Below are positions 1 through 18,660 of a DNA stretch of 22,694 nucleotides, piece by piece (position 1 is the first letter of the stretch; each line of letters starts with the position of its first letter). The position numbers and the translations under genes are program-made. Below the pieces are notes generated by a model that saw only the letters and a list, made by a program, of their open reading frames with translations, searched no databases and was not told where the DNA came from. Source of the stretch: a virus; the IMG/VR virus record IMGVR_UViG_3300021437_000087, positions 1 through 22,694 of that record; one strand, written 5' to 3'.

Positions 1-146
1 TAAAGCGGCTTGACTTTGACGTTTCTGACATCATAGCCTACATGAAAATTGTTGGTTTTGAACGCTTCAACGATAATCTTCTACCGGACGATAACATCAT
101 CTATTTTGATATTGACGAAAATCGAAACCCAATAAGGATTTACTGA
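1..146 (+). CDS. Small array protein A, C-terminal part only
   Basis: The gene is cut by the left edge; the frame begins at base 3 and leaves 47 codons before TGA. The visible part has a helix-like stretch (DIIAYMKIVGF) and then ends in a hydrophobic strand and the tail IIYFDIDENRNPIRIY. This strand plus D-E-N ending recurs in many small genes of this region, so I assign it to the same family. The stop overlaps the ATG of the next gene (TGATG). I recognise no function. The reading frame is supported by the shared C-terminal motif and by the overlap with the next gene. Confidence 0.75.
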   Translation, partial: KRLDFDVSDIIAYMKIVGFERFNDNLLPDDNIIYFDIDENRNPIRIY

Positions 147-397
147 TGAGTTATCTTGGAACCGTGCGGTATTCTGTTCACAACGGGGATGTTGAGATTT
201 GTAGATTTGGCAAAGGATTCTATATAGACCCAACCCCAGATGAACTTGAGAAAATTCTTCCAATAATTGACGTTTTGCGGGTTGCTGGATTCGATAACGT
301 CCCATATGTTTCTTCTGTGGTTTCGCCATACCCCAACAAGGATGCATACGTTTACTTTGACATTGATCATGACTATAACATCGTCGCAGAAGTTTGA
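146..397 (+). CDS. Small array protein B, unknown function
   Basis: This 83-aa protein starts at ATG 146, with AAGGA at 134-138 as ribosome binding site. The N-terminal half looks beta-rich and is followed by a helix (DELEKILPIIDVLRVAGF). It ends in the strand AYVYFDIDHDYNIVAEV, an off-consensus version of the D-E-N ending seen in neighbouring genes. The start overlaps the stop of gene A by one base. No signal peptide, membrane segment or catalytic motif is visible. The product is probably a small cytoplasmic phage accessory protein. The CDS is well supported; function is unknown. Confidence 0.75.
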   Translation: MSYLGTVRYSVHNGDVEICRFGKGFYIDPTPDELEKILPIIDVLRVAGFDNVPYVSSVVSPYPNKDAYVYFDIDHDYNIVAEV

Positions 398-605
398 ACC
401 CAGATACACCGTTCACTTTACGTGCTATGGCGATGACAAAATTGAATTTCGTTTGCGTCAGTATATGCACTTTGATCGTATTGGATACACAAACGAACAG
501 AGGGACAAGATCATAACAGCAATAGCCATTGAGAGAATAGCAAAAATTTACGGCGGCGTGACCATTCTTCTTGATGAAAACTTTGACCTCTTTATTCCCG
601 AATAA
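369..605 (+). CDS. Small array protein C, paralogue of the next gene
   Basis: I take ATG 369 as the start (78 aa), which overlaps gene B by 29 bases. An earlier in-frame start would extend much further into gene B. No clear Shine-Dalgarno site precedes 369, so translation may be coupled to gene B. Residues in the middle (GYTNEQRDKIITAI) match GYTNRQRDRIIDAI in gene D. The ending TILLDENFDLFIPE is nearly identical to D's LDENFNLFIPE, so C and D are tandem duplicates. It belongs to the small-protein family of this region. Function is unknown. Confidence 0.72.
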   Translation: MTITSSQKFEPRYTVHFTCYGDDKIEFRLRQYMHFDRIGYTNEQRDKIITAIAIERIAKIYGGVTILLDENFDLFIPE

Positions 606-835
606 TGACTACGCCAAATAGCCCTAGCTACTATGTGTTAATCAACCAAATCACACAAGAATTCAAGCTATACACTTGGTCATCAATCGAAGCTATTGGG
701 TACACAAATAGACAACGAGATAGGATCATTGATGCAATCAACATCAATAAAGTTGCGCAGGTTTATAGTGAACCGAGAACCATTCTTTTGCAAGTCTGCC
801 TTGATGAAAACTTCAATCTCTTTATTCCAGAATAA
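605..835 (+). CDS. Small array protein D, paralogue of the previous gene
   Basis: This 76-aa protein has an ATG overlapping the TAA of gene C by one base (TAATG). A short beta-like N-terminus (YYVLINQITQEFKLYTW) is followed by a helix with GYTNRQRDRIIDAI and the ending LDENFNLFIPE. Both blocks are shared with gene C, including close similarity at DNA level over the last 30 bases. It is the last gene before the first strong promoter box at 841. Function is unknown. Confidence 0.75.
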   Translation: MTTPNSPSYYVLINQITQEFKLYTWSSIEAIGYTNRQRDRIIDAININKVAQVYSEPRTILLQVCLDENFNLFIPE

Positions 836-840
836 CTCGT

Positions 841-882
841 TTTACTTTTATTGAAACCTCGTTTATAATTACCCTATCGTAA
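841..882 (+). promoter_or_regulatory. Promoter box P1 (sigma70-like, extended)
   Basis: The -35 is TTTACT at 841-846, with a 17-base spacer and a -10 TATAAT at 864-869. The element matches P2 (1172) and P3 (3176) base for base at both ends: TTTACTTTTATTG at the left and TATAATTACCCTATC at the right. The match continues past the -10 into the likely transcribed start. It lies directly upstream of the strong ribosome binding site (CTGGAG) of the 89-aa gene. It is probably an early or middle phage promoter read by host sigma70-type RNA polymerase. Confidence 0.85.
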
Positions 883-900
883 CAAACCTGGAGAATTGAA

Positions 901-1170
901 ATGGGTCGTAAGTCTTTCAAAATCGAAGAATTCGTCACTATCTGCAACGGCGTCTTGCGCTTGAGCGACCCTGAACTCAGCGAGCGTCGTAAGGGCGTCA
1001 TGTTGATTCTTGAGCAAACGCTGATGTCTTCTGGGAATTACAAAGGCTTTCGCTACTTGTCGGCAAAGGAATGCGAAGGAAAACCAGGCGTCAATCTCAA
1101 CGAAGACGGTTCGCTGCTCCCGTATCCAGAGCGATTCAAGGATACTGATCCAACTCGGGTCCAGTATTGA
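901..1170 (+). CDS. Hypothetical 89-aa protein
   Basis: The ATG at 901 has a good Shine-Dalgarno site (GGAG, 890-893) and its own promoter P1 only 30 bases upstream. The 89-aa product is soluble, with an N-terminal helix-rich part (KIEEFVTICNGVLRL, RRKGVMLILEQTLM) and a C-terminal part with YRYL-like and PYPERF segments but no motif I recognise. It lacks the D-E-N ending of the surrounding small genes, so it is not a clear member of that family. P2 begins right after its TGA, so it seems to be a single-gene unit. Strong signals suggest substantial expression. Confidence 0.8.
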   Translation: MGRKSFKIEEFVTICNGVLRLSDPELSERRKGVMLILEQTLMSSGNYKGFRYLSAKECEGKPGVNLNEDGSLLPYPERFKDTDPTRVQY

Positions 1171-1171
1171 T

Positions 1172-1213
1172 TTTACTTTTATTGGTCAATCGTTTATAAT
1201 TACCCTATCTTAA
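1172..1213 (+). promoter_or_regulatory. Promoter box P2 (sigma70-like, extended)
   Basis: TTTACT at 1172-1177, a 17-base spacer, and TATAAT at 1195-1200. It shares TTTACTTTTATTG and TATAATTACCCTATC with P1 and P3. It lies between the 89-aa gene and the AAA+ ATPase gene, and its downstream side runs into the ribosome binding site AAAGGA. It should drive the ATPase gene and the four small genes behind it. Confidence 0.85.
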
Positions 1214-1228
1214 CAAAGGAACTTTATT

Positions 1229-2308
1229 ATGGCAACTATCAACTCTCTGCGTATCAACCACCAAGATGCAATCAACCTGATTGCTGCTTCTGGTTCTGAA
1301 ATCACTTGCTTGCTACAAGGTCAACCCGGCATCGGTAAGTCGGCGATTCTCAAGGAACTCTCTGTCCGGTTCCCTGACTATGAGGTGGCCTACATTGACT
1401 GCGCCAACCTTGATCTGGGCGACTTGGGTATGCCTGTGATTGATCGTGAACTGATGGTCACTAACTATGCAACCAATGCGCGTTTCAAATTGACTAAGAA
1501 TTCAACCAAGCCTGTTCTGCTGATGCTTGATGAATTGGGCAAGGCAAGTCGTCCTGTGATGAACATGCTGCTGCCTGTGATTCTGGAACACCGCATTGGT
1601 GATGTGCATTTCCCTACTGGTTCAATCACATTTGCAACGACCAATCTGGCAACCGATGGGGTTGGTGATAACATTCCTGCCCATGCATACAACCGTATGA
1701 CTGTGGTCGATCTGTCCAACCCCTCATCTGAACAGTGGTTGGGTTGGGCAAACAATAACGGTGTCTGCGAAGAAATCATGTTGTTTGCGCGGGAATTTCC
1801 CCAAATCTTTGAACGCTATGATGATTTGATCAGTAATGATAAGAATAGCAACCCCTACATTTTCAACCCATTGCGCGGTAATGTTCGGGCCTTCTGTTCA
1901 CCCCGTTCGCTGGCTGCTGCATCGGTTCACGTTCGCAACCGCGAGAAACTTGGTGGAGCTTTGTTGGCTGTGCTTGCTGGCACTATTGGTGAAGCTGCTG
2001 CGCGTGATATGGAAGCCAACATTGCACTGGCCGACAAATTGGAATCATTCGAGAACATTGTCAAGAATCCAAAGAAGGCCAAGTTGCCAAAGGGCGTTGG
2101 TGCTAACTTCATGATGGCTTTCCGACTGGCTGCGAATGCAACTGCTGAAACTTTGGATGCAGTGATGGAATATGCTGATCGCATTGAATCGTTCGAAGCC
2201 AAGACATTGTTCATGGTGACGCTGGCATCCAACACTTCAAAGCAGCGTTGGGCCGTTGCAAACAAGACATTCATTGAAGAGTGCCGTAAAATTGGCAAAT
2301 ACTTCTAA
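1229..2308 (+). CDS. MoxR-like AAA+ ATPase
   Basis: This 359-aa AAA+ ATPase of the MoxR/dynein-like (AAA_5) type has Walker A GQPGIGKS at 31-38 and Walker B VLLMLDE at 96-102. Sensor-1-like TFATTN is at 134-139, an Arg at 156 (NR) could be the arginine finger, and R226 in SPRSL fits sensor 2. Family members form hexameric rings and work with VWA-domain partners (RavA/ViaA, NorQ/NorD, CbbQ/CbbO) to remodel or activate protein complexes, often metalloenzymes. The partner-type VWA gene lies 0.9 kb downstream behind an almost identical promoter. The ATG has AAAGGA upstream. The substrate in the phage is unknown; that the two proteins act together is inference from family and context. Confidence 0.9.
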   Translation: MATINSLRINHQDAINLIAASGSEITCLLQGQPGIGKSAILKELSVRFPDYEVAYIDCANLDLGDLGMPVIDRELMVTNYATNARFKLTKNSTKPVLLMLDELGKASRPVMNMLLPVILEHRIGDVHFPTGSITFATTNLATDGVGDNIPAHAYNRMTVVDLSNPSSEQWLGWANNNGVCEEIMLFAREFPQIFERYDDLISNDKNSNPYIFNPLRGNVRAFCSPRSLAAASVHVRNREKLGGALLAVLAGTIGEAAARDMEANIALADKLESFENIVKNPKKAKLPKGVGANFMMAFRLAANATAETLDAVMEYADRIESFEAKTLFMVTLASNTSKQRWAVANKTFIEECRKIGKYF

Positions 2309-2573
2309 GCGGGTCTGCATCATAGGTTTCTGGGATAACGGGGTGAATACAGTTCTAGTTGAAACGTACTCAGAAACCTATGATGAGAATTGGGAAGATC
2401 ACAGAATCCTCACTGATAAAGAAGTCAAACCATACCGAGAAAAGTTATTGAGTATCGGTATGGTTTTTCTGATTGCTGGCGAATGTGCTGAAATTAATTT
2501 GACTGATGGGAGACGCCTCAAGCAGGTTGAATTCGATATTGATGAGAATTTTGATTATGTACAGACGAATTGA
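2292..2573 (+). CDS. Small array protein E (TTG start)
   Basis: I place the start at TTG 2292 (93 aa), with GAAGAG about 10 bases upstream. No ATG is available near the 5' end; TTG 2256 and 2271 and GTG 2342 are alternatives. The gene overlaps the end of the ATPase gene by 17 bases. The protein has beta-like segments, a helix (DKEVKPYREKLLSIGMVF), and the ending QVEFDIDENFDYVQTN, the D-E-N type ending shared in this region. The codons for that ending (GATGAGAA) probably act as the ribosome binding site of the next gene. Function is unknown. Confidence 0.65.
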   Translation: MANTSKRVCIIGFWDNGVNTVLVETYSETYDENWEDHRILTDKEVKPYREKLLSIGMVFLIAGECAEINLTDGRRLKQVEFDIDENFDYVQTN

Positions 2574-2778
2574 AGTTGACATCCGCAAAATAACTGGTAA
2601 GCGACATTACTTTGTTGATAGTTGTATTCAATACGATCTCTCACCAGAATTCAAGTCGTATATTGATTCAATCGTCGATGTTGGATTGATTGCCAATGTT
2701 GGGGTTATGTATGGTGATGAACTTGCAATTCAGTTCTATGTTGATCCAAACGATAAATTCATCGAATTCACAAAATGA
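2557..2778 (+). CDS. Small array protein F
   Basis: The 73-aa protein starts at ATG 2557, inside the last codons of gene E. GATGAGAA at 2541-2548 gives a Shine-Dalgarno-like site about 8 bases upstream; I prefer this start to an in-frame ATG at 2506 deeper in gene E. The order is beta-rich N-terminus, helix (PEFKSYIDSIVDVGLIANVG), strand AIQFYVDPNDKFIEFTK. This is the family layout with D-P-N-D in place of D-E-N. The stop overlaps the next start (ATGA). Function is unknown. Confidence 0.7.
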   Translation: MYRRIEVDIRKITGKRHYFVDSCIQYDLSPEFKSYIDSIVDVGLIANVGVMYGDELAIQFYVDPNDKFIEFTK

Positions 2779-2975
2779 GAATCTACGCAAACAAGAACCA
2801 CGTTCCGTATGAGGTATACTCAAGAAACAAGGAGATTCCGCTTACAGAACAACACAAGGGGATTTACGCGATGGGGGTTATTCTTGGACAGGCGCGTAAG
2901 TCTCCTATCAAGAAAAATTCATACTGCGTCGTGTATGCTGTTGATGACCAAGGCAACTTTGCGAACTTCGTATGA
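2775..2975 (+). CDS. Small array protein G
   Basis: This 66-aa protein starts at an ATGA overlap with gene F and ends in an ATGA overlap with gene H, so translation is probably coupled. A basic N-terminus is followed by a helix (TEQHKGIYAMGVILGQA) and the final strand CVVYAVDDQGNFANFV, a D-D-Q-G-N-F version of the shared ending. TEQHKG resembles TEEQHDKL in gene H. No known domain is recognisable; it is most likely a soluble accessory protein. Confidence 0.72.
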   Translation: MRIYANKNHVPYEVYSRNKEIPLTEQHKGIYAMGVILGQARKSPIKKNSYCVVYAVDDQGNFANFV

Positions 2976-3175
2976 CATTGGTTCTTGTGAAACTCTCAAA
3001 GCTGACTGATTCTGTTACGGTTTCATGTATGCCCATGATAACAGAAGAACAACATGACAAATTAGTAGGCGCAGCCAGAGTCGCCATTCTGTCTGGGGAG
3101 TACCTCGATCATGATACGCATTACGCTGTGTGGATGGAAATTGATGAAAATAGAAACTTTGACAGATTCATTTGA
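2972..3175 (+). CDS. Small array protein H
   Basis: This 67-aa protein is last in the ATPase unit. It has an N-terminal strand (TLVLVKLSKL), a helix starting with ITEEQHDKLVGAARVAI, and the ending AVWMEIDENRNFDRFI, one of the best copies of the D-E-N-x-N-F consensus. The start overlaps gene G by four bases (ATGA). Promoter P3 starts at the base after its TGA, so this gene closes the unit. Function is unknown. Confidence 0.75.
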   Translation: MTLVLVKLSKLTDSVTVSCMPMITEEQHDKLVGAARVAILSGEYLDHDTHYAVWMEIDENRNFDRFI

Positions 3176-3217
3176 TTTACTTTTATTGAATTTTGCGGTA
3201 TAATTACCCTATCGTAA
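3176..3217 (+). promoter_or_regulatory. Promoter box P3 (sigma70-like, extended)
   Basis: TTTACT at 3176-3181, a 17-base spacer, and TATAAT at 3199-3204, again within TTTACTTTTATTG and TATAATTACCCTATC. It begins immediately after the stop of gene H and leads to the VWA gene at 3230, whose ribosome binding site is TTGGAG. Sharing the box with the ATPase gene implies the two are expressed together. Confidence 0.85.
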
Positions 3218-3229
3218 ATTGGAGAAATA

Positions 3230-4354
3230 ATGGAAGCTCTTGACCGTATCAAAAAAGCCCACGTTGACATTATGCGTCACGATGTGTTTTGTGTGTTCTC
3301 TGGGGTGTTGTCTTGCGGTAAAGTTTTTGTCGATGAAACCCCAACAGCCTGCACCGATGGTTGGAATATCTACTATGGCAAGAAGTTTGTTGAAACTTTG
3401 AAGCCGGAAGAAGTGCGGTATTTGGTTCTTCATGAGGCAACTCACAAAGCATACAAGCACTGTGATGTTTGGCGACATCTGATGAAGTTGGATGGACGCA
3501 AAGCCAACGTTGCGATGGATCATTTTGTCAACCTGTTTCTTGATGATACTATTGCCGATTCAAAGTGGGCTTTCATGCCTGCTGACGGTATCAAGGGTGA
3601 TCCAAAGTTCCGTGGAATGAATGTTCAGCAAATCTATGATGCCTTGACTGATGAAGATATGAAAGGTCAAGGTAAGGGCTTTGATGAACATGAATATCGT
3701 GAAATGACTGAGGAAGAAGCAAAGCAGGCTGCTGAGGAAATTGATAGGGCTTTGCGTGAAGGCGAATCAATTCGTCGGTCAAAGAGTTCAGACAAGGGTG
3801 GTAACGGGGTGTTTGGCGATATTCTCGAACCCAAGGTTGATTGGAAGAAAGTCCTTCGGGAATTTGTCCAAGAACAGTGCAATGGGAAGGATGAATCAAC
3901 ATGGCGCAAGCCCAACCGTCGATTCCTTGATATGAACGTCTATATGCCATCCACGTATAGCAACACCATTGAATCTATTGTGATTGGGTTCGATACTTCT
4001 GGTTCTTGCTTTGGGACTGATATGTCAACCCGCTTTGTGTCTGAAATTGCAGGTCTGATGGAAGTTATCAAACCTAACAAACTTCATGTGGTCTATTGGG
4101 ATACCGAAGTTCGCGGTCATCAGATTTTTGAAGATGGTCAGTTTGAAGTTCAGAATTTGACGCCTTATGGTGGAGGTGGTACTGACGGTGCAGTTCTGTT
4201 TGACTATCTGCGCACAGAACGAATTGATCCAACCTGCGTCATTCAACTGACTGATGGTGAGGTTGGTGATTGGGGTCGTTGGAATGGGCCTGTGCTTTGG
4301 GGCGTGATCGGAAGCGCAGTTGCTCCGTTTGGCACAACTATCAATATCAGCTAA
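3230..4354 (+). CDS. VWA-like protein with metallopeptidase-type N-terminus (DUF2201 family)
   Basis: This 374-aa protein has two parts. The N-terminal half carries LHEATHKAYKH (H68, E69, H72), a zinc-peptidase HExxH motif, followed by VAMDHFVN near residue 97, as in DUF2201 proteins. The C-terminal VWA domain has a complete MIDAS site: DTSGS at 255-259, T318 in GGGGTD, and D342 in LTDGE. A charged linker (about 140-190) joins them. In bacteria such proteins partner MoxR-type ATPases; here the ATPase gene is just upstream under the same type of promoter. Proteolytic activity is not proven, since many relatives are called only 'putative metallopeptidase'. Length and ending look complete. Confidence 0.88.
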   Translation: MEALDRIKKAHVDIMRHDVFCVFSGVLSCGKVFVDETPTACTDGWNIYYGKKFVETLKPEEVRYLVLHEATHKAYKHCDVWRHLMKLDGRKANVAMDHFVNLFLDDTIADSKWAFMPADGIKGDPKFRGMNVQQIYDALTDEDMKGQGKGFDEHEYREMTEEEAKQAAEEIDRALREGESIRRSKSSDKGGNGVFGDILEPKVDWKKVLREFVQEQCNGKDESTWRKPNRRFLDMNVYMPSTYSNTIESIVIGFDTSGSCFGTDMSTRFVSEIAGLMEVIKPNKLHVVYWDTEVRGHQIFEDGQFEVQNLTPYGGGGTDGAVLFDYLRTERIDPTCVIQLTDGEVGDWGRWNGPVLWGVIGSAVAPFGTTINIS

Positions 4355-4356
4355 TC

Positions 4357-4569
4357 ATGGATCGTAGATTTCTTATTCGGGAAGATGGTCAAGTTTTTGA
4401 ATTTGGCGAATCTGTTAATGGAGAGCCTCCTAAATGGGAATCGTATGGAGCCGACACAATTACGATTCGTTCTTACTATGATGTGGCATTGATTGCTGAT
4501 GAAGTTGATTTATTTGGTAATGTGTGCGTTCGCACCAATGCCAATCTTGAATTCATCACTTTCTTTTGA
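4357..4569 (+). CDS. Small array protein I
   Basis: This 70-aa protein starts at ATG 4357, two bases after the VWA stop. It has an N-terminal hairpin-like part (RRFLIREDGQVFEF), a central helix (TIRSYYDVALIADEV) and the ending NVCVRTNANLEFITFF. The ending keeps the strand and aromatic tail of the family but has T-N-A-N in place of D-E-N. RRF at the start resembles MRRFTYW of the next two genes. No Shine-Dalgarno site is evident, so coupling to the VWA gene is likely. Function is unknown. Confidence 0.7.
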   Translation: MDRRFLIREDGQVFEFGESVNGEPPKWESYGADTITIRSYYDVALIADEVDLFGNVCVRTNANLEFITFF

Positions 4570-4571
4570 TC

Positions 4572-4805
4572 ATGAGAAGATTTACATATTGGGATAACGA
4601 TAGAGTCAAGAATACTGGGTTTTATCCAACTGGCTATATTGAACATGATGGTAAAGTTAGTTGGAACCCAGTTAACGATCAGAAAATCATTGACATCATT
4701 GATCCGTATTATCAGATAGGCAAAATTGCAGGAAAAGAAAACCGCGGCGGATACATTATGTGTTTGTTTGACGACGATATGACATTCGTTAGGTACGCCC
4801 AATGA
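4572..4805 (+). CDS. Small array protein J, recent duplicate of K
   Basis: This 77-aa protein starts at ATG 4572. An in-frame TTG at 4566 is less likely because the paralogue K also begins MRRFTYWD. Shared blocks with K are MRRFTYWD at the start, NDQKIIDIIDP/TDQKIIDIIEP in the helix, and FDDDMTF/LDDDLNF near the end. Identity extends to the DNA level in the first 25 bases. The ending MCLFDDDMTFVRYAQ is the D-D-D form of the family ending. Its stop overlaps the start of K (ATGA). Function is unknown. Confidence 0.78.
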   Translation: MRRFTYWDNDRVKNTGFYPTGYIEHDGKVSWNPVNDQKIIDIIDPYYQIGKIAGKENRGGYIMCLFDDDMTFVRYAQ

Positions 4806-5053
4806 GAAGATTCACATATTGGGATTCTGAATTAAGAGGGAACCGTCATTCCAGTGGGAACCCCTATTCTAGTTTCATTGAATTTGATTACTTTGACGGC
4901 GCTTGGTCAACTGTGACAGATCAGAAAATCATCGACATTATTGAACCGCTTTATAATCTCGGTAAGATAACAAATCAGTACGATGAGTTTGGTTGGTTGT
5001 TCGTCACACTTGATGATGATTTGAACTTTAAGCAATTCAACGGGAGTCTTTAA
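4802..5053 (+). CDS. Small array protein K, recent duplicate of J
   Basis: The 83-aa paralogue of J begins at the ATGA overlap. It keeps MRRFTYWD, the DQKIIDII helix and the final strand LFVTLDDDLNFKQFNGSL, but has a small insertion after the first block (SSGNPYSS). Such a tandem pair with high DNA similarity points to a recent duplication inside this genome. It is the last member of the small-protein series; the two genes behind it are of another type. Confidence 0.78.
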   Translation: MRRFTYWDSELRGNRHSSGNPYSSFIEFDYFDGAWSTVTDQKIIDIIEPLYNLGKITNQYDEFGWLFVTLDDDLNFKQFNGSL

Positions 5054-5067: not shown

Positions 5068-5256
5068 ATGCACATAATTTTCTTACTCTTTTTTTTGTTC
5101 CTGTTTGTTGGAATCGTTCTCAAAATCCTTGGGTTCAACCCGATGAGTTGGTGGAAGGTTATTCTGTACCCAACCGCTGCCATACTTGGTCTGGCTGGGT
5201 TTATGGTCGTCAGTTTTCTTGGTTTTATTGTGTTGCTGGCAAGTCTTGCCAAATGA
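5068..5256 (+). CDS. Small two-helix membrane protein
   Basis: This 62-aa, very hydrophobic protein has a first membrane helix at about 2-21 (IIFLLFFLFLFVGIVLKIL), a short loop with GFNPMSWWKV, and a second long hydrophobic stretch at about 31-60. It is related to the next gene: ILGFNPMSWWKVILYP matches ILGFNWKPWDDMFLIP in spacing and type. AAGG lies about 12 bases before the ATG. It is probably an inner-membrane phage protein. A role in lysis timing or superinfection exclusion is possible, but nothing in the sequence decides it. Confidence 0.7.
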   Translation: MHIIFLLFFLFLFVGIVLKILGFNPMSWWKVILYPTAAILGLAGFMVVSFLGFIVLLASLAK

Positions 5257-5263
5257 GGAGTCT

Positions 5264-5413
5264 ATGAGTTTACTTTTATTTTTCATTTCGTTGGTTTGGG
5301 TTATGGCTGGAATCTTCTCGCGTATCCTTGGGTTTAACTGGAAGCCCTGGGATGATATGTTTCTGATTCCAATGGTTTTTCTCGTTCTTTTCTTTTATCT
5401 GTTTTCACTATGA
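5264..5413 (+). CDS. Small membrane protein, paralogue of the previous one
   Basis: I start this 49-aa protein at ATG 5264, with GAGGAG at 5255-5260 as a clear ribosome binding site; in-frame starts from 5186 lie inside the previous gene. It has a first membrane helix (LLLFFISLVWVMAGIF), the shared ILGFN...W...P loop and a second helix (MVFLVLFFYLFSL) that runs to the C-terminus. It looks like a shortened sister of the gene at 5068. The stop overlaps the next ATG (ATGA). It is too hydrophobic for a soluble role; function is unknown. Confidence 0.7.
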   Translation: MSLLLFFISLVWVMAGIFSRILGFNWKPWDDMFLIPMVFLVLFFYLFSL

Positions 5414-11519: not shown

Positions 11520-11534
11520 ATTAATGGGCCTGTT
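11517..11534 (-). repeat. Right flank repeat of the endonuclease gene (gp54 start)
   Basis: On the minus strand this reads AACAGGCCCATTAATATG, ending at the gp54 start codon. It matches 14 of 18 bases with AACAGGCGAACTGATATG at 12382-12399, which ends at the endonuclease start codon. Both copies supply AGG as ribosome binding site. The pair brackets the inserted gene. Confidence 0.5.
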
Positions 11535-12384
11535 TACAAATCGCGATGTGTCTGTATATGCTCGGGGAGGAACCAAGTTTTCCACAATTCTCACAAGTTA
11601 TTTTCGGATTATTGTATATAATCCCCCGTAAATTTTCCCTGGCCTCTTCTGTCTTGGAGTGGTTCTCAAATCCGTATTTCGCTATATTCGTCAATTTCCT
11701 CTTTTCTGGATTGTTGTAGTTTTCATTGCCGTATAATTCTTTTTTCGTAATCGACGCTTTCTCCAAATTGTTGTAGTTTTCGTCGCCGTACTTTTCAAAT
11801 TTAGTTTTTCTTGCGGATTCGCTCGCGGCTTTCGCTATTTCCGGCAATTGTAGAATATGCTCAACGCCGTATTTTAGCATCATAGTTTCTTTTCTGCGTT
11901 GTTCTATGTTATTACCGGGGAAACGCATATTCAATGTTCCGTATTTCTTCAATAGCGCGAGTTTTCTGTTCTCTACACATTTCTTTATTATTTCTGGGTG
12001 CTTCGATACATTATCAACGCCATATTTTCTCTTTATATTCAATTTGTATTCTGCAGAACCGTAACCTTTCAAATTCGTATTGCAGTGAAGGTTCAACCAA
12101 GTATCTTCTACATCGCATCGATTTTCTCGAAGGAACCAAGTCTCATATTCGTATATAGTATTCCAACCGAACGGAAATTTTATTTCTTCCTCTAATAAGA
12201 TATCTAAAATTTCAAACGAATCTACCCCCGTCGTTTCTATTAACTTGTGTATAGTCTTTGAAGAAGTAAAATAACCCCCGGCTTTGAATAATCTGTTTGG
12301 ATCCGCGTCTTTACTCCATTTCGCTCCCGCATATTTCTTGCCGGAAGGCTTATGATGAATTATATAAAAGTATGGCGTCGACAT
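11521..12384 (-). CDS. Free-standing homing endonuclease, GIY-YIG-like
   Basis: The 287-aa protein begins FYIIHHKPSGKKYAGAKW, a GIY-YIG-like opening (YII ... YAG), followed by GYFTSSKTIHKLI and IYEYETWFL, whose Glu could be the catalytic one. About six 'KYG.EN...PE' repeats (about 120-245) form a DNA-binding array. A C-terminal zinc finger has C264, C267, H279, C283. The gene is markedly richer in A+T and uses codons unlike its neighbours, a sign of transfer. It fits between two late genes with only one base on each side: stop-N-ATG at its start, and TAA-N-ATG with gp54 at its end. Homing elements of this type spread by cutting homologous sites lacking the insert. Confidence 0.85.
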   Translation of the reverse strand: MSTPYFYIIHHKPSGKKYAGAKWSKDADPNRLFKAGGYFTSSKTIHKLIETTGVDSFEILDILLEEEIKFPFGWNTIYEYETWFLRENRCDVEDTWLNLHCNTNLKGYGSAEYKLNIKRKYGVDNVSKHPEIIKKCVENRKLALLKKYGTLNMRFPGNNIEQRRKETMMLKYGVEHILQLPEIAKAASESARKTKFEKYGDENYNNLEKASITKKELYGNENYNNPEKRKLTNIAKYGFENHSKTEEARENLRGIIYNNPKITCENCGKLGSSPSIYRHIAICKQAH

Positions 12385-15047: not shown

Positions 15048-16306
15048 ACGAGGTTCTGTCTCGGGCAGGGCAGTTTGTCCTGGACTCGGTCAGCATCATC
15101 CAGCCCGGTGGGTTGGCGATTGAGATATTTGATCAGATTCAACAGATTACCCTGTACGAGGATATCTTCTCGCCGATAATGAGTGGACATTTGGTTATAC
15201 TTGATAACCGAGATATTGCTGGGCTACTGCTGAACGCGGGAACCGATCTGTTGAGGTTACGGCTGAGAACCCCGACGATTGATACACCAAACCAGATTGA
15301 TCGACTGTTCCATATCTACCGGATGAGTGACCGAGAAGTTGCCAGCGAGCGGACTCAGTCTTACATGTTGTATTTCACAGCGGTTGAGAATCTGATGGAC
15401 ACATCGAACCGCATTAGTAAAACGTACCGAGGCAAGGGTGAGTACGTTATCGGCAGTATTCTGAGCTCGATCGGCTCGACGGTCAAGTTTACCCCAACGG
15501 CCTCAACGAATGACCTTGAGTACACCTCAAACTACTGGTCACCCTTTCAGAATATCAACTATGCGGCTGATCGGAGTATCGCGCAGGATGGAACTGCCTC
15601 GTATTTGTTTTTTGAGAACCGAACAGGGTTCGTTTATGCGCCCCTGACCCAGATGGCTTTGGCGAAACCGAGCCTCAGTTTCCTTGTCACAGATCAGGTT
15701 GCCGATACCGATAAAACGACCTCCCGGGCGGTAAAGAATATTGAGATGGATTATCGGTCGATTCTGAAGTTGACGACAAGGGTCAACTACGATTACGATA
15801 AGAGTAAGCGCGGGGGTATGCTGAACTCACGGTTGTTCTCATATGACTTTGTCAAGAAAACGCTGACTGATAAAACCTTCAATATGAATTCAGACTCACG
15901 TCAGAGGATGAATAAGAACGTATTCTTCAAACCAGAGGTTATTGATTCCTCGTACAAACAGAACGGTACTGTGCATTTGATTATTCCCAAGACAAGCGGA
16001 TTGTACGGGGGATTATCAGCAACGCCTTCAGTTATTCAGAGTCGAATCTCGATCCTTCAGCAGTATCAACAACATAAGATTGAAATTGATGTGTTTGGGC
16101 GTACCGACTATACGGTCGGCATGACGGTCAATATAGATGCGACTAAACTGAAGCAGATTTCAAAAGATATGGATGCCAGTTCGTTGAGCGACCCGTACTA
16201 TTCTGGCGTCTATATTATCTCGGCAATTTGCCATCGGTTCTCAAAAGACGGTGACCACAAGGCGACTATTGAATTGATGCGGGATAGCATCGGAGAAAGA
16301 AACTGA
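15044..16306 (+). CDS. 27: gp27-like baseplate hub protein
   Basis: gp27 is a trimeric ring at the centre of the baseplate that holds gp5 and connects to the tube. This 420-aa protein (T4: 391) has the hub pattern QITLYEDIFSPIMSGHLVIL near residue 35, DRLFHIYRMSDRE near 85, and LMDTSNRISKTYRGKGEYVI near 115. A C-terminal barrel with HKIEIDVFGRTDYTVGMTVN and YYSGVYIISAICHRFS completes it. The start is GTG 15044, overlapping the gp53 stop as GTGA. It is directly followed by gp5, its physical partner (TGATG overlap). Confidence 0.9.
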   Translation: MNEVLSRAGQFVLDSVSIIQPGGLAIEIFDQIQQITLYEDIFSPIMSGHLVILDNRDIAGLLLNAGTDLLRLRLRTPTIDTPNQIDRLFHIYRMSDREVASERTQSYMLYFTAVENLMDTSNRISKTYRGKGEYVIGSILSSIGSTVKFTPTASTNDLEYTSNYWSPFQNINYAADRSIAQDGTASYLFFENRTGFVYAPLTQMALAKPSLSFLVTDQVADTDKTTSRAVKNIEMDYRSILKLTTRVNYDYDKSKRGGMLNSRLFSYDFVKKTLTDKTFNMNSDSRQRMNKNVFFKPEVIDSSYKQNGTVHLIIPKTSGLYGGLSATPSVIQSRISILQQYQQHKIEIDVFGRTDYTVGMTVNIDATKLKQISKDMDASSLSDPYYSGVYIISAICHRFSKDGDHKATIELMRDSIGERN

Positions 16307-18660
16307 TGTTTTTCTACGGTATTGTTGAAAATCGAACCGATGACCCGCTGAAGCTCGGTCGGTGTAAGGTACGGGTGTTTGGACTACATTCGCCAGATAA
16401 GGTTGAGTTGCCAACAGAGGACTTACCCTGGGCAATCGTGATGCAGCCTGTCAACTCGGCTGCCACCAGTGGTATTGGTATATCGCCAACGGGCTTGGTT
16501 GAGGGCGCAGCGGTTATCGTGATGTATCAGGATGAGTTCAAACAGCAGCCGATCATTATCGGTTCGATTGCTGGGGTTCCATCTGCGCCTGCGGTCACAA
16601 AAGCCCCTTCAGGTTGGGTATCTGCCGATGGTACTCCGATCACTTCAGGCGATGGGTCAGTAATTGAATCTGGGACCACTACGTCTGATACAGGGATTTT
16701 GCCGCCCACTTTGGCTCTGGTCGTATCGTCAGCCTGCTTTGAATCAATCCGAGCTGAAGAGTCAATCTCAAGTATCATCAAGGGTCAGAACAAGTACCTG
16801 AACGCAGCGGCGGCTGCTCGGTTATCAGGTTCAACTACTCTGTACTCATACCAGGACACTCGCGGTCTGTGGACTATCGGTTGGGGTAACCGATACCTGA
16901 TTGATGGGTCAGAAGTTAATGAGAACACAACCCTGCTCAAGGCAGAGGCTGATGTGCTGCTTGAGCAAAAGGTGAACGCTGACTTTGCCCCGGTAATTCG
17001 TAAGGCGTTGAAGGCCCCGGTGACTCAGAGTATGTTTGATGCAATGGTTTCAATTGCATACAATACTGGGCAGTACGGGTTTGCCAAGTCAGATGTGATC
17101 GCCGCAGTTAACTCTGGTGAGTATCAGACTGCTGCCTCGCTGATAGCGGTACACAAAACCAACGGGGGGAAGTTGTCGGCGCGGCGCCAGCGGGAAAAGG
17201 CTCTGTTTGAAAAGAATGGGTTCCCTCGTAAAGACATGTCAGGGGTGGATGCGACGGTCGCTGAGATCGTCACTCCCCCAGACGCCACTGAGAACCCGGT
17301 TGTTACTCCGCTAGAATCTGATAAGCCGATTGAATCTCAGGCGACCAAAGGGTTTGTTGATCCAAATAACGTTTACCCAAAGTTCCTCAATGAACCTGAT
17401 ACAAGTCGGTTGATTCGACATGAGAATATTGATCAGACGATCGTTTTCTCAAAAGAGGCGGCTCGGGCCAAGGGCGTTGTCTCAGCAGCGGGTAACTCCT
17501 GGACCCAGCCGACTATTCCATACAACTCAACTTATCCTTATAACCACGCAAGAACGACTGAATCTGGGCATGTGCAGGAGTTTGATGATACCCCAGGGAG
17601 CGAGCGCATCCACACGTATCACAAATCGGGCACGTATGAGGAAATTGACCGTAACGGTACCAAGGTCAACCGTATTGTGGGCGACGGTTACGAGATACTT
17701 GAGAGAAATGGGAATGTGCTTATCCGAGGCACAATGAATGTGACGATTGTTGGGAATAACAACATTCTGGTTGAGAACGACTCGAATATTGACGTTTACG
17801 GTAATGCCAATATGACGGTCGGGGGTAATATGATTACCGGGGTGAGTGGATCGTTCTCGATTAAGTGCGGAGGGGAGTTTAGCGTGGATGCCTCGCAGGT
17901 TCACCTGAACTCAGGTCACTCGGCTTCAGTTCCACTGGGTCGAGGAACCGCTTCAGGGGTGCCTGAGTTTTCTGAGTTGGTTGCTCCGTCTCGTCATGAT
18001 TCAGATATTGCCAATTATGAGTCGCCAGATGAGGGTGATGGGGAAGAGTATCAGCGGGGACTGGTGAAGTCAGGCAAGGCCGATGAGCCAGGGTATTCTG
18101 AGAATCTGGGCGATGCAGAGGTTACATCCGATACTTCAGAAGGTGAAGTATCGGTCGACTGCTCGATGATTCCCCAGTCAGGTTCGGTTGATCCTGGGTT
18201 TAGGCTAAGTAAGAGTTTTGTTCTGCGCGATCTTGATAAGTCAGGGGTTATCAACGGAGCCAGTGTTAGTGGGCTGAGCCGAGCCAATTTGGTTTGTAAC
18301 CTGAAGGGGCTTGCTGAGAATGTGCTGGAGCGCGTCAAGCAGAAGTACCCCAGTATGGTCATCACTTCAGGGCTACGCAACTCGATTCCTCCTGGGGGCG
18401 CTGCCAAGTCTGAGCACCTGACAGGGAATGCGGTGGATATTGTCATTTCAGGCTTCAACCGAGAACAACACTATTTGGCTATCCAGGACCTGGCTCAGTC
18501 GCTGCCTGCGTTTGGTCAGTTGATTCTAGAATACAACGGGACAAAGACCTGGATACATATTTCCTACGGCGGAAGTAAGGGTAACCAGAAACAGATGTTC
18601 ACAATGAACAATCATAAGACGGTTCAGCCGTTTGGTAAATACATACTGATTGGGGCGTAA
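16306..18660 (+). CDS. 5: gp5-like tail spike/lysozyme with extra M15 peptidase domain
   Basis: This 784-aa protein forms the membrane-puncturing needle under gp27; T4 gp5 is 575 aa. An OB-fold occupies about 1-105. A T4-lysozyme-like GH24 domain follows at about 150-310, with YQDTRGLWTIGWG carrying D184 and T190 of the catalytic triad. The catalytic Glu position is G175 (LSGSTTL). A triple beta-helix with VxG-type repeats occupies about 430-540. After a Ser/Glu/Asp-rich linker comes a C-terminal domain (about 637-775) of M15 peptidase type, with zinc ligands H704 and D711 in SEHLTGNAVDI and H751 in WIHIS. The second domain would cut peptide links in peptidoglycan. The missing Glu suggests an inactive or altered lysozyme. 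Confidence 0.9.
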   Translation: MFFYGIVENRTDDPLKLGRCKVRVFGLHSPDKVELPTEDLPWAIVMQPVNSAATSGIGISPTGLVEGAAVIVMYQDEFKQQPIIIGSIAGVPSAPAVTKAPSGWVSADGTPITSGDGSVIESGTTTSDTGILPPTLALVVSSACFESIRAEESISSIIKGQNKYLNAAAAARLSGSTTLYSYQDTRGLWTIGWGNRYLIDGSEVNENTTLLKAEADVLLEQKVNADFAPVIRKALKAPVTQSMFDAMVSIAYNTGQYGFAKSDVIAAVNSGEYQTAASLIAVHKTNGGKLSARRQREKALFEKNGFPRKDMSGVDATVAEIVTPPDATENPVVTPLESDKPIESQATKGFVDPNNVYPKFLNEPDTSRLIRHENIDQTIVFSKEAARAKGVVSAAGNSWTQPTIPYNSTYPYNHARTTESGHVQEFDDTPGSERIHTYHKSGTYEEIDRNGTKVNRIVGDGYEILERNGNVLIRGTMNVTIVGNNNILVENDSNIDVYGNANMTVGGNMITGVSGSFSIKCGGEFSVDASQVHLNSGHSASVPLGRGTASGVPEFSELVAPSRHDSDIANYESPDEGDGEEYQRGLVKSGKADEPGYSENLGDAEVTSDTSEGEVSVDCSMIPQSGSVDPGFRLSKSFVLRDLDKSGVINGASVSGLSRANLVCNLKGLAENVLERVKQKYPSMVITSGLRNSIPPGGAAKSEHLTGNAVDIVISGFNREQHYLAIQDLAQSLPAFGQLILEYNGTKTWIHISYGGSKGNQKQMFTMNNHKTVQPFGKYILIGA
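18128..18154 (+). other. Perfect 11-bp hairpin inside the gp5 linker region
   Basis: CCGATACTTCA (18128-18138) and TGAAGTATCGG (18144-18154) are exact reverse complements around the 5-base loop GAAGG. It lies in the linker codons between the beta-helix and the peptidase domain. No T-tract follows, so it is not a standard terminator. It could slow ribosomes or mark a domain junction made by recombination. Confidence 0.6.

Follow-up and report, generated by a model that had tools for sequence, protein, structure and literature searches.

Sequence analysis of a viral DNA of 22,694 nt (the window; IMG/VR virus record IMGVR_UViG_3300021437_000087, of which it is the sole contig) showed that 11 open reading frames (ORFs) at positions 1-5053 belong to one family of small proteins, here named S, and closely surround the two genes that encode a MoxR-type AAA+ ATPase and a metallopeptidase-VWA protein. 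The S homologues of other phages were single-copy and occurred only with one clade of the VWA protein. S is tentatively read here as an accessory subunit of this machine, most likely an adaptor for recognising targets or partners, which was amplified in this phage; this is the explanation towards which we lean, at a confidence somewhat short of even.

The S family and the machine genes

The genes are listed below, the S members with the profiles that recognised them (window, built from the S proteins of the window; external, built from the S proteins of other phages).

3-146, plus strand: S member A; 5' end lost at the contig edge; 0/1000 shuffles as good, window and external profiles
146-397, plus strand: S member B; window and external profiles
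369-605, plus strand: S member C; ATG at 369, 29-nt overlap with B; window profile and C/D pair, weak with the external-only profile
605-835, plus strand: S member D; duplicate of C; window and external profiles
1229-2308, plus strand: MoxR-type AAA+ ATPase; Walker A GQPGIGKS, Walker B LLMLDE; AAA_5 25.0 bits (cut-off 22); phrog_1297 E 9e-47
2292-2573, plus strand: S member F; no ATG, TTG start likely; window profile
2557-2778, plus strand: S member G; window and external profiles
2775-2975, plus strand: S member H; window and external profiles
2972-3175, plus strand: S member I; window and external profiles; AlphaFold2 model
3230-4354, plus strand: metallopeptidase-VWA protein; DUF2201_N (PF13203) 81.1 bits, DUF2201 (PF09967) 53.0 bits
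4357-4569, plus strand: S member J1; window profile
4572-4805, plus strand: S member J; window profile and J/K pair
4802-5053, plus strand: S member K; duplicate of J; window and external profiles

The copy number of S is at least 11, because the contig starts inside member A, which is cut by its edge. Membership was determined by a leave-one-out test in which the profile was built from the remaining members (C and D were left out jointly, and J and K likewise), with two controls: 1000 shuffles of each member, and 634 small ORFs taken from the DNA of other phages. Every member scored better than 991-1000 of its 1000 own shuffles and better than all but 0-4 of the 634 background ORFs, which bears out the proposal of an earlier note, made from the sequence alone, that the small genes form one family. 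The best background matches came from Roseobacter phage CRP-7, from small genes close to the MoxR/VWA pair of that phage, but the motif was absent from their sequences and they were rejected. Gene E and four small ORFs downstream failed to join in the same test and were also rejected; gene E lies between D and the ATPase gene and carries the promoter element yet is outside the family.

The C-terminus of all 11 S proteins is a hairpin of two strands whose turn holds an almost invariant Asp, in agreement with the common D-E-N type ending described before, and their conserved parts are this last hairpin and a helix ending hydrophobic-x-x-(I/V)-(A/G). The copies are 66 to about 94 amino acids (aa) long, and their N-terminal parts are hardly alignable. 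Neighbouring S genes mostly overlap or touch (ATGA/TAATG), as had also been observed. No significant match to the S proteins was obtained in Pfam, PHROGs, NCBIfam or PADLOC, and the sequences were too short for a tree to resolve whether the window copies form one clade.

Clear likeness survives in two pairs only, C/D with 46% and J/K with 43% aa identity, and both had been called duplicates in the earlier note. Synonymous change is saturated in the two pairs, with a proportion of nonsynonymous differences (pN) of 0.39 against a proportion of synonymous differences (pS) of 0.74-0.75, which indicates that they were kept as proteins by purifying selection. This value, and the fact that in a compact phage genome all 11 ORFs are open and closely coupled, argue against a neutral tandem amplification in which one or few S genes are functional and the others are relics; the tandem arrangement and the small number of pairs still alike would fit such an origin, which is considered very unlikely.

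In the VWA protein, the motifs HEATH (residues 68-72) and DTSGS of the metal ion-dependent adhesion site (MIDAS, 255-259), together with T318 and D342, were conserved, and the Walker A and Walker B motifs of the ATPase aligned with those of phage homologues, so that the HEXXH, MIDAS and Walker motifs are all intact in the sequence. The label HNH endonuclease, attached to the VWA protein through phrog_1314, was rejected, as the Pfam matches across the protein were limited to DUF2201_N and DUF2201, with no HNH domain. The same phrog_1314 name has been carried into many phage records for what is a metallopeptidase-VWA fusion: relatives of the VWA protein were present in 687 of 50,697 phage records, many of them labelled HNH endonuclease or hypothetical. 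Assignment to the bpMoxR (MoxR-vWA-beta-propeller ternary) system was also rejected, with a bpMoxR score of 17.0 bits for the ATPase, under the cut-off of 27. The window proteins had no sequence match to solved chains. A VWA protein 55% identical to that of the window was seen on a 4.7-kb contig binned in an Armatimonadetes metagenome-assembled genome, which is probably phage DNA in the bin.

Genomic linkage and distribution of the cassette

Single window proteins (the VWA protein, member D) and the J/K pair gave no matches as queries in viral contigs, while an alignment of VWA proteins retrieved 80 loci from them; since the single VWA query found nothing, an alignment is needed to reach these relatives. 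Among the 32,199 ORFs of the collected loci, the profile of the 11 window S proteins had 13 matches at E <= 0.1 (best E 3.8e-5), and all 13 were one gene located a few kb downstream of VWA. The matched loci were those with the VWA protein most like that of the window, and they came from uncultured, non-T4 phages. As a control, 22 column-permuted profiles placed no S gene among the top 15 of any of them, with a best E of 0.005. In the opposite direction, a profile of external S proteins only recovered A, B, D, G, H and I at 0-2/1000 shuffles, and F and K weakly at 16-21/1000.

A reverse scan with the external S gene alone returned 71 loci, in all of which (71/71) S stood directly after a DUF3150 (PF11348) gene. 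Where at least 5.5 kb upstream was available, ATPase, VWA, DUF3150 and S occurred in that order in 37/37 loci. S homologues scattered without the ATPase and VWA genes were looked for and did not occur. As some loci came from the same contig, only distinct VWA proteins with 4.5 kb downstream were counted: exactly one S gene was nearby in 73/73 of the window's clade and in 0/34 outside it, the former count being a description rather than a test of a prior prediction, as the S-bearing clade was first defined by the same scans and the reverse scan is the independent part. The link of the small genes to the ATPase and VWA genes, put forward in the earlier note, is therefore present as an exclusive co-occurrence in unrelated phages.

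Outside the S-bearing clade, 31 of the 34 VWA proteins nevertheless had DUF3150, and at many of these loci (among L121-L165) the gene after DUF3150, where S would otherwise stand, encoded a protein of about 290 aa that may be a functional counterpart of S. In the VWA tree, the window and the S-bearing proteins formed one group (Shimodaira-Hasegawa-like approximate likelihood ratio test 98), in which the window is on a long branch sister to the rest; three VWA proteins of the clade were S-less, at loci with too little downstream sequence. The external VWA proteins of this clade were about 44-56% identical to that of the window, and the ATPases 50-63%.

The window carries at least 11 copies of S, against one at each of the other loci (73 distinct relatives), so that among everything scanned the amplification is confined to this phage and the lineage-specific burst of paralogues noted earlier stands. 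S was not found in cultured phages, within the sensitivity of tblastn, nor in genome contigs. The S-bearing phage contigs viewed over their whole length were about 61-68 kb, and in the one that was read, the terminase, portal, head protein and DNA polymerase did not resemble the window's T4-type genes. One S-bearing phage has a DNA polymerase gene (L386:6431-9166) whose matches to polymerase families come in separate pieces with an endonuclease-family match between them, perhaps an intein.

The right part of the window contained T4-type myovirus genes (single-strand binding protein, helicase loader, DNA end protector, tail tube cap, baseplate wedge and hub), and the nearest records for the baseplate wedge gene were T4-like phages of Methylophilales, Pelagibacter and cyanobacteria. 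When compared by single-strand binding protein, the closest kin, one of them a 165-kb record, lacked the VWA gene and had different genes at the cassette position. The ATPase/VWA/S cassette is therefore, on gene content, accessory in the T4-like lineage and was probably transferred between phages.

An accessory cassette of this kind, absent from the closest T4-like kin in the records examined, would also suit S proteins that are independent counter-defence proteins or decoys merely expressed alongside the machine, with the burst reflecting an arms race with hosts, and so would the strong divergence of the S copies from each other. Strict one-to-one co-inheritance with one VWA clade is not what such proteins lead one to expect; S was never found without the VWA clade or DUF3150, and it had no match in PADLOC. 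We regard this explanation as unlikely.

Predicted fold and role of the S proteins

Models were made for member I of the window and for the S protein of an outside locus (L091). Member I was predicted as beta-beta-alpha-beta-beta with a mean predicted local distance difference test (pLDDT) of 92.3, while the L091 model (pLDDT 90.1) had the core of member I and one extra strand. A common beta-beta-alpha-beta-beta core is thus predicted for the two proteins and unrelated folds were not found, although the two models are not fully independent (the L091 alignment held external sequences only, and that of member I included external rows) and their likeness was judged without superposition. ATP-grasp C-terminal subdomains led the second-look lists of structural neighbours of both models, only at Z 3-7 (member I: Z 6.6, root-mean-square deviation 2.6, 62 aligned; L091: Z 4.5, root-mean-square deviation 3.8, 71 aligned). 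These Z values are within the range of common arrangements and no function was taken from the likeness. Foldseek gave nothing below E 0.02 in the PDB or viral models, with a best PDB E of 0.3.

The compact, high-pLDDT models, in which the conserved parts are a folded helix and hairpin, bear on whether S proteins are substrates, small precursors that the metallopeptidase-VWA protein would remodel or cleave, with many copies giving many products. An intact HEXXH domain is what this would need, and some MoxR-vWA systems are linked to pairs for peptide processing in which a metallopeptidase goes with small, fast-diverging proteins (PMC7159879). However, no common cleavage-site-like segment was seen in S, and the S gene of the relatives is single-copy and sits with DUF3150; the substrate explanation is judged quite unlikely.

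The layout of the cassette includes a 55-nt repeat in three copies with a sigma70-like core, TTTACT-17-TATAAT, and gene E:

828-882, plus strand: promoter-like repeat copy 1, precedes gene E
901-1170, plus strand: gene E, 89 aa, outside the S family; no significant Pfam or PHROG match
1159-1213, plus strand: promoter-like repeat copy 2, precedes the ATPase gene
3163-3217, plus strand: promoter-like repeat copy 3, precedes the VWA gene

The earlier note had the small genes sharing promoters with the ATPase and VWA genes; the repeat does precede both of these, and it also precedes E, which is not a member. Members F-I come after the ATPase and J1-K after the VWA gene, with overlaps and no more copies of the 55-nt element, which makes it probable that F-I are co-transcribed and co-expressed with the ATPase and J1-K with the VWA protein. 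Such co-transcription, the core kept in all copies and the exclusive link to the machine would also be expected if the paralogues were structural subunits of a hetero-oligomer with the VWA protein or ATPase, filling many different positions instead of one homo-oligomer. The variable lengths and hardly alignable N-termini of S speak against this arrangement, to which we give little credence.

Since S is always inherited with one VWA clade, the simplest reading is that it belongs to the same machine as a subunit or adaptor; and as only S is amplified and diverged, next to one ATPase and one VWA protein, the pattern points to diversified recognition. On the adaptor reading, other phages have one S gene after ATPase, VWA and DUF3150, and in the T4-like phage S would have multiplied to at least 11 copies, whose divergence would have left just the helix and the last beta-hairpin recognisable. 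Each S copy would dock on the VWA protein or the ATPase through the conserved core, while its variable parts would present a target that the ATPase ring would remodel and the metallopeptidase may cut. Multiple S copies could then serve multiple targets.

Several points weigh against the adaptor reading. With the external-only profile, C, J1 and J were not significant and joined the family via the window profile only. A DUF3150 gene was not recognised among the window ORFs, on a contig that starts inside member A; it may be either off the contig or lost. No second phage with multiple S copies was found in the scans, so the amplification rests on one contig, and conserved linkage would also fit a substrate or inhibitor.

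A more specific proposal, held with greater reserve, is that the S proteins form an exchangeable specificity panel: at least 11 diversified, co-expressed adaptors would, as recognition subunits, steer one ATPase and metallopeptidase-VWA machine to different host or phage proteins. We know of no established targets for phage metallopeptidase-domain MoxR-vWA pairs. Being strictly tied to one VWA clade, S is a candidate partner that could serve directly for isolating the targets of the machine, and its natural diversification into eleven copies offers a ready test of whether the number of partners sets the target range.

Neighbouring genes and known systems

Two mutually similar small membrane proteins adjoin the cassette at 5068-5413, and two T4-like kin (L166, L167) have 1-3 similar small membrane proteins at this position, perhaps another small array. 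On the minus strand at 11521-12384, inside the structural gene region, an ORF resembles by eye a GIY-YIG-type nuclease. The baseplate hub/tail lysozyme gene at 16306-18660 contains a lysozyme segment internally and, at the C-terminus, a second segment that is endolysin-like. The window had no Rfam match and no tRNA.

Of the systems compared, the ATPase-VWA-DUF3150-S set of uncultured phages (loci L086-L116 and L246-L379) shares the VWA clade and a homologous S with the window; it differs in having one S after DUF3150 and other structural genes, not T4-like where read. DUF3150 was not mentioned in the literature searched. Group 2.2 jumbo phages have a MoxR ATPase and a vWA protein with an N-terminal metallopeptidase domain, encoded close together as in the window, for which a role in virion assembly with peptide processing has been proposed; the available portion of that description mentions no small partner family, DUF3150 or paralogue burst (PMC7824862). 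MoxR ATPases work with VWA partners to remodel proteins in NorQ-NorD and RavA-ViaA, which share this pairing with the window; these systems are cellular and, in the portions of the sources available, have no S family and no metallopeptidase domain is mentioned (PMC9976466, PMC10585395). VMAP and other MoxR-vWA ternary systems also have a third linked component, some with multi-copy small domains such as DUF397, although that component is a different protein (PMC7159879). The MoxR and metallopeptidase-vWA machine is of a known kind; the S family had no match in the libraries searched, and its multiplication was seen in the window alone among everything scanned.

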